Assembly: GCA_024278215.1 (NCBI GenBank)
Contig: JAJRTR010000143.1
Location: 1-15,024 of the forward strand
Length of the DNA stretch: 15,024 nt
Reading direction: 5' to 3'
Source: a bacterium
GTDB lineage: Bacteria; UBP15; UBA6099; JAJRTR01
Shown one piece after another: positions 9,588 to 15,024 of the stretch (the first letter of the stretch is position 1; each line of letters opens with the position of its first letter). The translations under genes were made by a program, and so were the position numbers. The notes beneath the pieces are model-generated. The model ran no database searches, had not been told where the DNA came from, and saw nothing but the letters and a program-made list of their open reading frames with translations.

Positions 9588-10877
9588 TTATCTCGAAGCG
9601 GACTGGATACCGGCGGTACGGAAGACGAGGCGTACGGGATAGTAGGAACCGGATTCGGGAGTGATCTCCACATTGACCGTGCGGTGTCCTTTCGGGGAAA
9701 CATCAAACTCGCCGATGACGATGGAATCCGGTGGTTTTACGAGATTGGTTTTCACGAGTGTGCCGTCAACAATGATTACGCCCCTTGCGGGTCCGGCAGA
9801 AGGATTGAAGTGGAGTTCGACCCTCTCTGTCCGTGGAAACGGATTATCGAGAGAGACTTCCAGCCTGTAGGTTACACCGTAATTGCCCTTGAGCGGTGAA
9901 TGGTCTCCGTTGAGACTTCGCAACGGGTTGTCGCCGATATTTATGAACTTCCATCTGCCGCCGAGTTCGAATTTGTCCTTAATGAGAATGTAGGGCGGCC
10001 CGTATACGCCGTGCCCCCGCGACGAGTCGAACTCGCCGATGGGGCGTGCCCAGGCAGTGACGTATCTCATCGGATCGAGAACTTTGATTTTGAATGTTAT
10101 ATTGTCACCGGAAAGCAACCTCATGTCGCCGACGCCGCTGATAATTTCTTCCGGCGCAAGTTCGTACTGATGAATTGCGGTTTCGCCCGGCGGCAGTTCG
10201 AGGATGCTGCCCCTGTTGTCAAGCAGGTTGCGGGCAAAAGAGTGGGCAGTCCGGTGGCCGGGCGGCGACTCGAGTATGTCTGTCTCGAACGTACCCTCGA
10301 CGATATGCAGCACAGCGGTTTCGTCCGCCTTGTTTTCCGCCAGCATCACAAGTTCGAGCGGTCTTCCGACGCCGTTTTTGTGATGTATGAGATAGCGCAC
10401 GGACTCCTGCGCGTCGATCTTTCCTTCAAGCAGAAGGCCTGTTTCCGTCAGCAGTTCCGGGTTGTTGCTCACATACAGTCTGCTGCATCTGCCGAAATCC
10501 TCGATCACAACATTTTCGATCCGAACGGCGGTATAGCTACGCGCGCTCCTGTAGTTTCTGCCCCATGTCAGGACAGAAACGAGTGCGGTGGATGTGTGAC
10601 CGCGAGTGATGTAGTCGGGCGCGATGATTCGTGTGCGGTCGACATAGAAGCGGCCGCCCGGCTTCGTCCTGATATTGTTCTCCACTTTCATTATCAACTG
10701 TGGAATATAGAAATCGAGAGGGACCCTGTTGCCTGTTATCTTTATAGAAAGAAGGGCCGGTGTTGTACCTGCGTATTCAGTGGCTGCGTTCTTTACAGGC
10801 GAAGCCGTGATCCGCGCACAGAAAAACACAACCGCCGAAACAGCTAAGGCCAATATTTTTGTCCCTGTGCGTGTCAT
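9588..10877 (-). CDS. Secreted protein, possibly DUF3370-like
   Basis: This is a 429-residue protein with a clear N-terminal signal peptide (basic start, hydrophobic TKILALAVSAVVFFCARITA, probable cleavage near 25). The mature part is rich in beta strand and has no catalytic motif that I recognise. From about 135 to the end the order of segments NNPELLTETGLLLEG, RYLIHHKNGVGRPLEL, LPPGETAIHQYEL and KGNYGVTYRLEVSLDNP resembles, from memory, the DUF3370 family best known from cyanobacteria; this needs a profile search. The two cysteines (20, 130) do not suggest a disulfide core in the mature form. The start ATG at 10875-10877 lacks a strong Shine-Dalgarno. It lies 126 bases downstream of fumarase beta on the same strand, and its function is unknown. 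Confidence 0.72.
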   Translation of the reverse strand: MTRTGTKILALAVSAVVFFCARITASPVKNAATEYAGTTPALLSIKITGNRVPLDFYIPQLIMKVENNIRTKPGGRFYVDRTRIIAPDYITRGHTSTALVSVLTWGRNYRSARSYTAVRIENVVIEDFGRCSRLYVSNNPELLTETGLLLEGKIDAQESVRYLIHHKNGVGRPLELVMLAENKADETAVLHIVEGTFETDILESPPGHRTAHSFARNLLDNRGSILELPPGETAIHQYELAPEEIISGVGDMRLLSGDNITFKIKVLDPMRYVTAWARPIGEFDSSRGHGVYGPPYILIKDKFELGGRWKFINIGDNPLRSLNGDHSPLKGNYGVTYRLEVSLDNPFPRTERVELHFNPSAGPARGVIIVDGTLVKTNLVKPPDSIVIGEFDVSPKGHRTVNVEITPESGSYYPVRLVFRTAGIQSASR

Positions 10878-11003
10878 TTATTCAACTGGTTTATGCTTTT
10901 TTATGTTGCAATGTGTTAATCGCAAAGAATTCTTCGGACTTCAGTCATGGATTAAAATGGATTCTCACCTTCGCAGGCACAATATACAGGAAGAAAAACG
11001 ACT

Positions 11004-11564
11004 TTAATCTTTCCTGAATTCCTTATAGCCCACTTCGTACAGGTTTCCACCGTGAACGTCGTTGGCGACAACGGCAGGGAACTCCTCGACGACAATGCGG
11101 CGCATTGCTTCGGGACCGAGATCGTCATACGCAATGACTTCCGCCTCTTTGATGGAGCGTGCTATGACAACACCCGCGCCGCCGATTGCCGCGAAATACA
11201 CAGCGCCGTGTTTCTTCATCGCTTCGATCACAGCGGGGCCGCGTGCGCCCTTGCCTATCATGCCCTTGAGTCCTATTTCCATGAGGCGCACGGCATAAGG
11301 GTCCATTCGATAGCTGGTCGTCGGGCCTGCCGAGCCGATCACCTCGCCAGGTTTCGCGGGTGTGGGACCGACATAATATATTATCTGACCGGCGAGATCG
11401 GCGGGCAGGTCTTCGCCCCGGTCAAGCGCGTCGAGCATCCTTTTGTGCGCGGCGTCGCGTGAGGTGTACATGACGCCGCTTATCAGCACCCGGTCGCCTA
11501 TCTTAAGGTCTTCCAGTACTTCACTTGTGAGTGGTGTTGTGATTTTTTTCATGTCGTTGCTCAT
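11004..11564 (-). CDS. fumB-like: Class I fumarate hydratase, beta (C-terminal) subunit
   Basis: From the ATG at 11562-11564 the protein has 186 residues, as usual for the separate beta subunit of Fe-S hydro-lyases (fumarase class I / tartrate dehydratase family). Signatures are SRDAAHKRM (35-43), YYVGPTPAKPGEVIGSAGPT (63-82), TSYRMDPY (83-90), the GKGARG loop (104-109) and AAIGGAG (125-131). With the alpha subunit it interconverts fumarate and malate. The start overlaps the alpha stop as ATGA, and GAAGGTGA lies about six bases upstream inside alpha, so translation is coupled. A longer frame exists to 11636, but it would cover the end of alpha. Tartrate dehydratase beta is the main alternative, since the subfamilies are close; fumarase is favoured by family frequency only. 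Confidence 0.9.
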   Translation of the reverse strand: MSNDMKKITTPLTSEVLEDLKIGDRVLISGVMYTSRDAAHKRMLDALDRGEDLPADLAGQIIYYVGPTPAKPGEVIGSAGPTTSYRMDPYAVRLMEIGLKGMIGKGARGPAVIEAMKKHGAVYFAAIGGAGVVIARSIKEAEVIAYDDLGPEAMRRIVVEEFPAVVANDVHGGNLYEVGYKEFRKD

Positions 11565-12536: not shown

Positions 12537-12685
12537 CAATTATTGCGGAGTGTGCGACACAAAAGTGGTTATTTGAGAAAAGCGGGGCAGGTACCGCAAA
12601 AAACAGCGTTACCTGTCCCTGTTTTTCGCGCACGAAAAATATGGTTGTTTTTAGCCCACTTTTATGTCGCACACCAATTATTGCG
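12537..12685. mobile_element. MITE-like element with 19-bp inverted repeats and 11-bp flanking direct repeats
   Basis: CAATTATTGCG occurs at 12537-12547 and again, same orientation, at 12675-12685, like a target-site duplication. Between them (12548-12674) the ends are inverted repeats: GTGTGCGACACAAAAGTGG (12550-12568) against 12656-12674, 18 of 19 matching. Inside are two hairpins: GGGGCAGGTA/TACCTGTCCC (12584-12593 with 12610-12619, one G-T pair, extended by CGC/GCG) and TTTTTCG/CGAAAAA (12622-12639). The 127-bp body cannot encode a transposase, so it would be non-autonomous. Confidence 0.65.
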
Positions 12686-12722: not shown

Positions 12723-12797
12723 TTTATAGATATACCAAACGAGAGTCACCACAAAAAAACAGGCTCGTGATGGGCCGCATATACCGGAGGCGATACT

Positions 12798-14855
12798 GTG
12801 AGCGCGAAAAAAGTGAAGAAGAAGAAAGATATAGATACATCAGATTACTTCAATGGCCTGATTCCGATAAATGAATACATATACCGGAAGTATCTCAAGG
12901 AAGCCAAAGCACCGTTCAGCGACCAGACGGCAAACGCCGACGAGATGATTCACGGTGCGGCGCAGTTCGAGGGCGAAAGAAATGCACTTATTCAATACCT
13001 TCGCAGACTGAGTCCGTTCGAGAGGCACGTGTACGACTCGGCAAAGAGCCTTAAAAAAGTCGACGAAGAATTGAAAGAAGCTGTTGAAAAAAACAACGCC
13101 GACGAAATGACAAAAGGCTATTTCAAAATTGCTACGATCCTGATGCAACTGAAACTCTGGGTGCCCAGCGACTTTGAAATACAGGAAATGCCGCTCGCGA
13201 TTGAATTTACGTCCGAAGAAATACAGTTCCTGGACCATGCTATGGGAATCGACATGCCGGTGCTGCCCGACAAAGTAAAAAGACCTGAACCCATAGAATT
13301 GACACGCACGGCAGACGTTGACAAAAGACAACTTCACGAAAGCGGCAGGATCATCGACCCGGACTATGAAGAACCACTCCGCAAGATCATGCGCAGCTAC
13401 GTTTACAAACATTATGGCGTCGAAAGGATCGTGAATTTTTCCGGGACCAAGGTGCCTCTGAAATCCAACCAGTCGTTCCATAATGTTAAAGTCAAAGAAG
13501 AAGTCCATGATATGTCTTGCTTTTTTGGATTGTCGCAGTTCATCGAAAACAAGTACTCGAGTCTCCGAAGATCGACATACAGGCCGCTGGACATCGAACG
13601 CAAGGAATCGGGCGGGTACAGGGGTAAACGGATAAAGTTTAAGGAAGAAAACGGAAAACTCGTCGAAGTTCCCAACGGCATGATCTCAGTCGAAGTGATG
13701 GCAATGACGCCGCAGGACATAAACCTGAAGATGATCAACGACATCGGCTTGATCAGAGATACGCTGACTCAGGGCGCTAAGAAGATCGACAACAATTACT
13801 TCTTCAATATTTTTTACCACATACAGAAACCGTTGCTTTCCCCCGAAGAAATGAAAGATGTCGAAGTGAGTGAGACATACGAACGATTCGAGCCGTCCGA
13901 AACAGACGACTACATGAAGCACAGAGACCGTATCGACGCCGATACAACTATGGACCTCATAAAAGAGCTGTCCGCCTGCGACCAGTATATATTCGGCGGC
14001 CACCTTGATATGGACCTCTACCTCGACGGCATAGGTATCCGCAAAAAGCCTAACATTATGATTATCGAGGGCGAAGGGCTCGCTTCTTACGACTATATAA
14101 ACAATCTGATAATAGTACCGTCGATCTGCCCGCAGAAAATAACGCCCATCGACCAGATACTGGCTGCTCTCGCCGACTTCAGGTACGCACTCTGGATAGA
14201 CTCGCCGAAGGATATATGGGAACAACAGGGAGTGGGCTTCCAGATCATCGGAAAGAGAAGTAAAGACAGGGCATCCAAAGCGCTCTGGAGTTGTTTCCCC
14301 GCACGATGCAGCGCGCTCATCAAGCAGAGGGCCTTCCGCGAATATTACAGAAAGCACATACTGGGATTCCTTTTCAGCAACAGGGTGAAAGTAGTCGCTG
14401 GCTGCGAAGTGCCGACAGTAAACCGCTTCCCCGATAAGGCACTCCGCATGTACTTCGACGCTTATGTACCGCTGAAAGAAATAAAAGAAAGCGGCTCGCT
14501 GAAAAAGAAACAGGAAAAGAAATCAGCCACCGCCCCAACTCAGGTACCGGCGGCAAAACCAGCCGCACCCGCCAGGCCGCCGGTCGCAACACCCTCTCAC
14601 GCCACCGCGCCCGCAGCACCCACCGCGCCCGCTGCCGGGAAACCGGCAGCACCGGCATGTCCTGCCGCGCCCGCTCACACCCCGGCTGCAACTTCTGCCA
14701 TGAAATGCGCGAATTGCGGGAAAGAACTTCCCGCAGGCAGCAAGTTCTGCCTCGAATGCGGCACTCCCGTCGCCACCACCAAAAAATGCACGAAATGCGG
14801 ATTCGAGCTGCCCATCGCTGCAAAATTCTGCAACGAATGCGGCACTCCGCAATGA
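12798..14855 (+). CDS. Large protein of unknown family with C-terminal double zinc ribbon
   Basis: The GTG at 12798 has GGAGG (12786-12790) seven bases upstream. The 685-residue product has a basic N-terminus (KKVKKKK), about 560 residues of globular, charged sequence that I do not recognise, a Lys-rich then Ala/Pro-rich low-complexity linker (about 567-634), and two zinc ribbons. Ribbon 1 uses C637, C640, C651, C654; ribbon 2 uses C664, C667, C678, C681, both in the CxxCG...KFCxECGTP form of double zinc-ribbon domains. There is no signal peptide or membrane segment, so it is predicted cytosolic. Zinc ribbons on a flexible tether usually bind nucleic acid or protein. Part of the core (about 418-466, NIMIIEGEGLASYD, NNLIIVP, then a helix ILAALADFRYALW) has the strand-helix order seen around metallopeptidase active sites but lacks HExxH; this is only a speculation. 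A miniprotein gene overlaps its stop. Confidence 0.85.
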   Translation: MSAKKVKKKKDIDTSDYFNGLIPINEYIYRKYLKEAKAPFSDQTANADEMIHGAAQFEGERNALIQYLRRLSPFERHVYDSAKSLKKVDEELKEAVEKNNADEMTKGYFKIATILMQLKLWVPSDFEIQEMPLAIEFTSEEIQFLDHAMGIDMPVLPDKVKRPEPIELTRTADVDKRQLHESGRIIDPDYEEPLRKIMRSYVYKHYGVERIVNFSGTKVPLKSNQSFHNVKVKEEVHDMSCFFGLSQFIENKYSSLRRSTYRPLDIERKESGGYRGKRIKFKEENGKLVEVPNGMISVEVMAMTPQDINLKMINDIGLIRDTLTQGAKKIDNNYFFNIFYHIQKPLLSPEEMKDVEVSETYERFEPSETDDYMKHRDRIDADTTMDLIKELSACDQYIFGGHLDMDLYLDGIGIRKKPNIMIIEGEGLASYDYINNLIIVPSICPQKITPIDQILAALADFRYALWIDSPKDIWEQQGVGFQIIGKRSKDRASKALWSCFPARCSALIKQRAFREYYRKHILGFLFSNRVKVVAGCEVPTVNRFPDKALRMYFDAYVPLKEIKESGSLKKKQEKKSATAPTQVPAAKPAAPARPPVATPSHATAPAAPTAPAAGKPAAPACPAAPAHTPAATSAMKCANCGKELPAGSKFCLECGTPVATTKKCTKCGFELPIAAKFCNECGTPQ

Positions 14856-14974
14856 ATTGCCGACACTGCAATATGGTTACACGTGAACTGAATAACTTAA
14901 AAAACCACCCTGAATACAAAGAACGCTTCAATGAGATTATGAAACAGATACAAGAGAACGATAAGAGGAAATAG
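14852..14974 (+). CDS. 40-residue CxxC miniprotein coupled to the zinc-ribbon gene
   Basis: The ATG at 14852-14854 overlaps the TGA of the preceding gene as ATGA, the usual sign of translational coupling. The 40-codon frame begins MNCRHCNMV, with a CxxC at residues 3-6, followed by a strongly charged, probably helical segment (KNHPEYKERFNEIMKQIQEN) and ends at TAG. It has no Shine-Dalgarno of its own. A single CxxC is half a zinc site, so it would need a partner or a dimer to bind zinc. A related protein is not recognised. Alternatives are a chance frame, but the exact overlap, the protein-like composition and the Shine-Dalgarno of a following start favour a real gene. Confidence 0.6.
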   Translation: MNCRHCNMVTRELNNLKNHPEYKERFNEIMKQIQENDKRK

Positions 14975-14977
14975 GCT

Positions 14978-15024
14978 GTGTCGGAGCATCTGTGTGTTTT
15001 TTCGGGCCGAGTTTACCACAGCAC
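14978..15024 (+). CDS. Possible start of a further gene, cut by the window edge
   Basis: A GTG at 14978 has AGAGGAA (14964-14970) seven bases upstream and begins four bases after the miniprotein stop. The frame (reading VSEHLCVFSGRVYHS) is open to the window end. Only 15 codons are visible, so it can be named only as a candidate third member of the operon. Confidence 0.35.
   Translation, partial: MSEHLCVFSGRVYHS

Follow-up and report, generated by a model that had tools for sequence, protein, structure and literature searches.

The stretch of DNA analysed here, referred to as the window, is one entire contig of 15,024 bases (G000:C119). Toward its right end it carries a 685-aa open reading frame whose product consists of a long core, an Ala/Pro-rich linker and a double zinc ribbon, and whose stop codon is overlapped by a small frame with a CxxC motif. 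The features are as follows:

12787..12797, plus strand: ribosome binding site (GGAGG) and spacer before the GTG at 12798, from the sequence and a duplex energy of -9.5
12798-14855, plus strand: 685-aa open reading frame with GTG start (ORF call)
12798..14495, plus strand: core, residues 1-566, of no known family, from the ORF and two homologues at 53-55% identity
14496..14699, plus strand: Ala/Pro-rich linker, residues 567-634, net charge +6.6
14700..14855, plus strand: double zinc ribbon, residues 635-685, and the stop codon (Pfam DZR, Zn_Ribbon_1)
14852-14974, plus strand: 40-codon CxxC frame, a doubtful gene, with an ATG that overlaps the stop codon of the large gene as ATGA
14884..15024, no strand: 141-base contig-end overlap, shared exactly with the end of contig C204, through which the sequence runs on

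The 685-aa gene is real, as indicated by a strong ribosome binding site and by homologues in two genomes of its order. The GGAGG motif is placed at good spacing from the GTG at 12798, and its duplex energy (-9.5) compares with a value of -7.8 for the best 1% of background places. The gene is present in a single copy. Two divergent fumarase genes are located 5' of it, and convergent genes for a DUF202 protein and an MFS transporter follow 3' on contig C204, so that the 685-aa gene stands alone. An Rfam search of the whole window gave no match. The leader of the gene, between its start and the divergent fumarase genes, harbors a MITE-like element (12548-12674) with 19-base terminal inverted repeats that are 95% complementary; the element is flanked by an 11-base direct repeat, CAATTATTGCG, at 12537-12547 and 12675-12685, and about 20 near-full or long copies with 82-92% identity occur elsewhere in the genome. 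At a separate locus, L035, a minus-strand gene (10064-11035 in the numbering of that locus) encodes a secreted-looking protein of 323 aa in which a motif of the form WCExNPDECxxKKEKIKEK is repeated many times.

Whole-genome searches with the core covered six other genomes of the order and yielded a homologue in two, G002 (54% identity over residues 20-566) and G005 (55% identity over residues 21-560), and the same two homologues were recovered from the GTDB contigs, where they belong to the uncultured bacterium MAGs DeMMO6_30 and RA.bin91. The three core sequences are roughly equidistant from each other, with pairwise identities of 53-54%, and their conservation climbs toward the C-terminal half of the core, where it peaks at 57-67% invariant positions in residues 391-480. 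Genus g2 is represented by four genomes, with completeness values of 92% and 97% for two of them, and none matched the core; its absence from these four genomes of the order therefore argues that the gene is not essential to the lineage. No convincing core match was obtained in 379 further whole genomes or in a second sample of 385 whole genomes that overlaps the first, and no relative was found among viral contigs, plasmids and phages; a match in G026 at 0.008 was regarded as noise, with the rest of its genus and family unmatched. Within the collections searched, the core family is thus restricted to one deep bacterial order. The gene neighborhood differs among the three loci, which share no conserved neighbors: the G002 homologue (L007) lies next to a TPR gene, and the G005 homologue (L006) next to genes for a penicillin-binding protein and an isocitrate-dehydrogenase-like protein, the latter recognized by translation only.

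Searches of residues 1-566 against Pfam, NCBIfam, PHROGs and PADLOC gave no convincing profile match over the cut-off, and a profile of the core sequence found no match among PDB chains (best E value 0.5), in agreement with the description of the core as unlike known families in the first-pass annotation. AlphaFold2 predictions for the core, made with three homologue rows, reached a mean pLDDT of 42, and the C-terminal half alone gave an unusable model with a mean of 36. Within the full-core model, a helical structure is probable for residues 31 to about 100, where the pLDDT is 63-82 in each block. A Foldseek search with this poor core model returned a best E value of 0.14 and no match below 0.1, a result that carries no weight because the pLDDT of the model is so low. 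Since no usable predicted structure is at hand, the function of the 685-aa protein can be approached from its architecture alone. The highest mean hydropathy over 19 residues in the protein is 1.08, and consequently no transmembrane segment is expected.

The linker comprises 68 aa, including 24 Ala and 15 Pro residues, and leads into a ribbon segment with a net charge of +2.4, which is matched by Pfam DZR (PF12773) at residues 637-682 (E value 8.5e-11; 42.3 bits against a cut-off of 27.3) and by Zn_Ribbon_1 (PF13240) at 1.7e-12. Four CxxC pairs begin at residues 637, 651, 664 and 678, so that the set of eight cysteines is complete. A double ribbon of the same kind is found in the G005 homologue as well, preceded there by an Ala/Pro linker of greater length; the contig of the G002 homologue stops at the expected start of the linker, so the tail can be read in the G005 homologue only. 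The Ala/Pro tether with eight cysteines in two ribbons, as first annotated, is therefore borne out and recurs in a second genome. The 685-aa protein resembles bacterial proteins tailed with DZR (PF12773) or Zn_Ribbon_1 (PF13240) in carrying a C-terminal ribbon pair on a low-complexity linker, but differs from them in a core that matches no described family. In the same genome, the Pfam DZR cut-off is also passed by six further proteins of unrelated sequence, and because DZR is so common on unrelated proteins the ribbons suggest docking to something rather than the activity of the protein. Similar modular use of the same kind of ribbon is seen in two of the six, L047 and L055, although in these proteins the ribbons are N-terminal and the partner is a domain that appears STAS-like from its sequence, not this core. 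A comparable arrangement is offered by SHOCT, described in PMC3581485 as a short, mostly C-terminal module joined to many unrelated domains; SHOCT and the DZR tail are both short C-terminal modules, but SHOCT is not a zinc ribbon. Another protein of this genome, L048 (G000:C98, about 85019-86032), consists almost entirely of repeated zinc ribbons with Pro/Thr/Glu-rich linkers between them, and its last repeats are almost identical to one another.

The first-pass annotation had joined the 685-aa gene and the 40-codon frame into a two-gene unit. Both open reading frames and their ATGA overlap are present in the sequence. Our analysis gives something approaching an even chance to the explanation that the small frame arose by chance or is a decaying relic, located in the AT-rich spacer that separates the large gene from the convergent DUF202 gene, with the large gene being monocistronic. 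This explanation is consistent with the position of a lone large gene amid divergent and convergent neighbors, with the monocistronic state of the homologue L006 and with the lack of a homologue of the small frame among 386 genomes. The 40-aa frame also gave several weak matches (E values 0.003-0.05); L066, L068 and L070 look unrelated on reading, and the remaining ones are short, partial and mostly located within longer frames. In contrast, the codon score of the frame (0.22) falls inside the range of real gene segments, at their 27th percentile, and among the top 2% of spurious ORFs. When the AT-rich sequence of the frame was shuffled, 2.4-4.7% of the shuffles stayed open and 7% of those scored equally, which yields a joint chance of roughly 0.2-0.3% for this composition, before counting the places from which such a frame could be picked; the gene-like score is thus in part due to the AT-rich composition. 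A chance or relic origin of the small frame is compatible with the reading of the 685-aa protein as a stand-alone docking protein.

The alternative that a 40-aa CxxC protein is re-initiated at the ATGA, is made at a fixed ratio to the large protein and works with it, for instance by completing a zinc site that both share, appears unlikely. The overlap itself, the gene-like codon score and the CxxC motif followed by a charged, seemingly helical stretch would fit such a coupled pair; however, an open and gene-like frame is not very unlikely in DNA of this AT-rich composition, the frame lacks homologues in the 386 genomes, and no Shine-Dalgarno sequence precedes it (duplex energy -1.7, equal to the background level). 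Moreover, in L006 a convergent gene for the penicillin-binding protein ends 60 bases past the stop codon of the large gene and therefore leaves no room for a miniprotein frame. This test is limited to a single case, because the contig of L007 ends just after the core, but in the one homologue whose 3' flank can be read the miniprotein is absent, which speaks against a two-gene unit; the fixed stoichiometry and shared task initially attributed to the pair find no support. Translation coupled at the ATGA is possible in this one species, and the frame may be either a young lineage-specific small ORF re-initiated there or a frame open by chance. As a partner it is not conserved, and it amounts at most to a local oddity.

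In summary, the orphan family at this locus is real and its tail an ordinary one, and the two-gene view is not borne out. From the first-pass annotation the open reading frames, the linker, the ribbons and the unmatched core stand, as does the interpretation of an unfamiliar core tethered to two ribbons, while the 40-aa frame is unconfirmed as a gene, the two-gene unit is unsupported, and the third start and the operon are contradicted. We tentatively favor, as a plausible account that falls somewhat short of being probable, a stand-alone cytosolic orphan protein that combines a family-less core with a tethered docking tail. The working part of this protein would be the C-terminal half of its core, which contains long invariant stretches and may be enzyme-like or form a tight interaction surface. 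Judging from the architecture, the ribbons on their positively charged tether may form a docking module, which would bring the core to a nucleic acid or protein partner. The proposed role of the 685-aa protein as a sensor or adaptor is an architectural guess. Poorly sampled lineages commonly encode large conserved proteins that belong to no family; the 685-aa protein represents a clean case, with about 54% identity across genera of an order and a tail hinting at docking, and it would be of importance if its core had a new fold or were a new enzyme. A more ambitious version, in which the core is a new fold or enzyme family, confined to one deep bacterial lineage and held at nucleic acid by the tethered ribbons, and has gained a coupled zinc microprotein in this species, is highly improbable. 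Comparably little credit is given to the idea of a degenerate zincin (zinc-peptidase-like) domain, devoid of the HExxH residues, in the C-terminal part of the core, since the strand-helix pattern (INNLIIVP...DQILAALADFRYAL) resembles one by eye and nothing further, while HExxH is absent, Pfam and NCBIfam are unmatched, a profile comparison with the contig's own Peptidase_MA protein gave no match, and the core models (mean pLDDT 42 and 36) are too poor for judging the fold.

A third possible start had suggested that a longer operon might begin here, but the frame from GTG 14978, read through the overlap into the minus strand of C204, stops after 24 codons, and the next genes on C204 are convergent, which contradicts such an operon. 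Codons 12-40 of the miniprotein recur at the end of C204 as their only other strong match in the same genome; this copy was ruled out as a paralogue because it is part of the exact 141-base identity of the two contig ends. We infer that this identity is an assembly k-mer overlap of neighboring contigs. No such overlap within the same genome was found for the left end of the window, and the k-mer interpretation therefore draws on the C119/C204 pair alone. A dispersed repeat (14969-15021), situated around the stop codon of the miniprotein and within the 141-base overlap, has copies at C112:29990 and C196:30073 with 82-84% identity.
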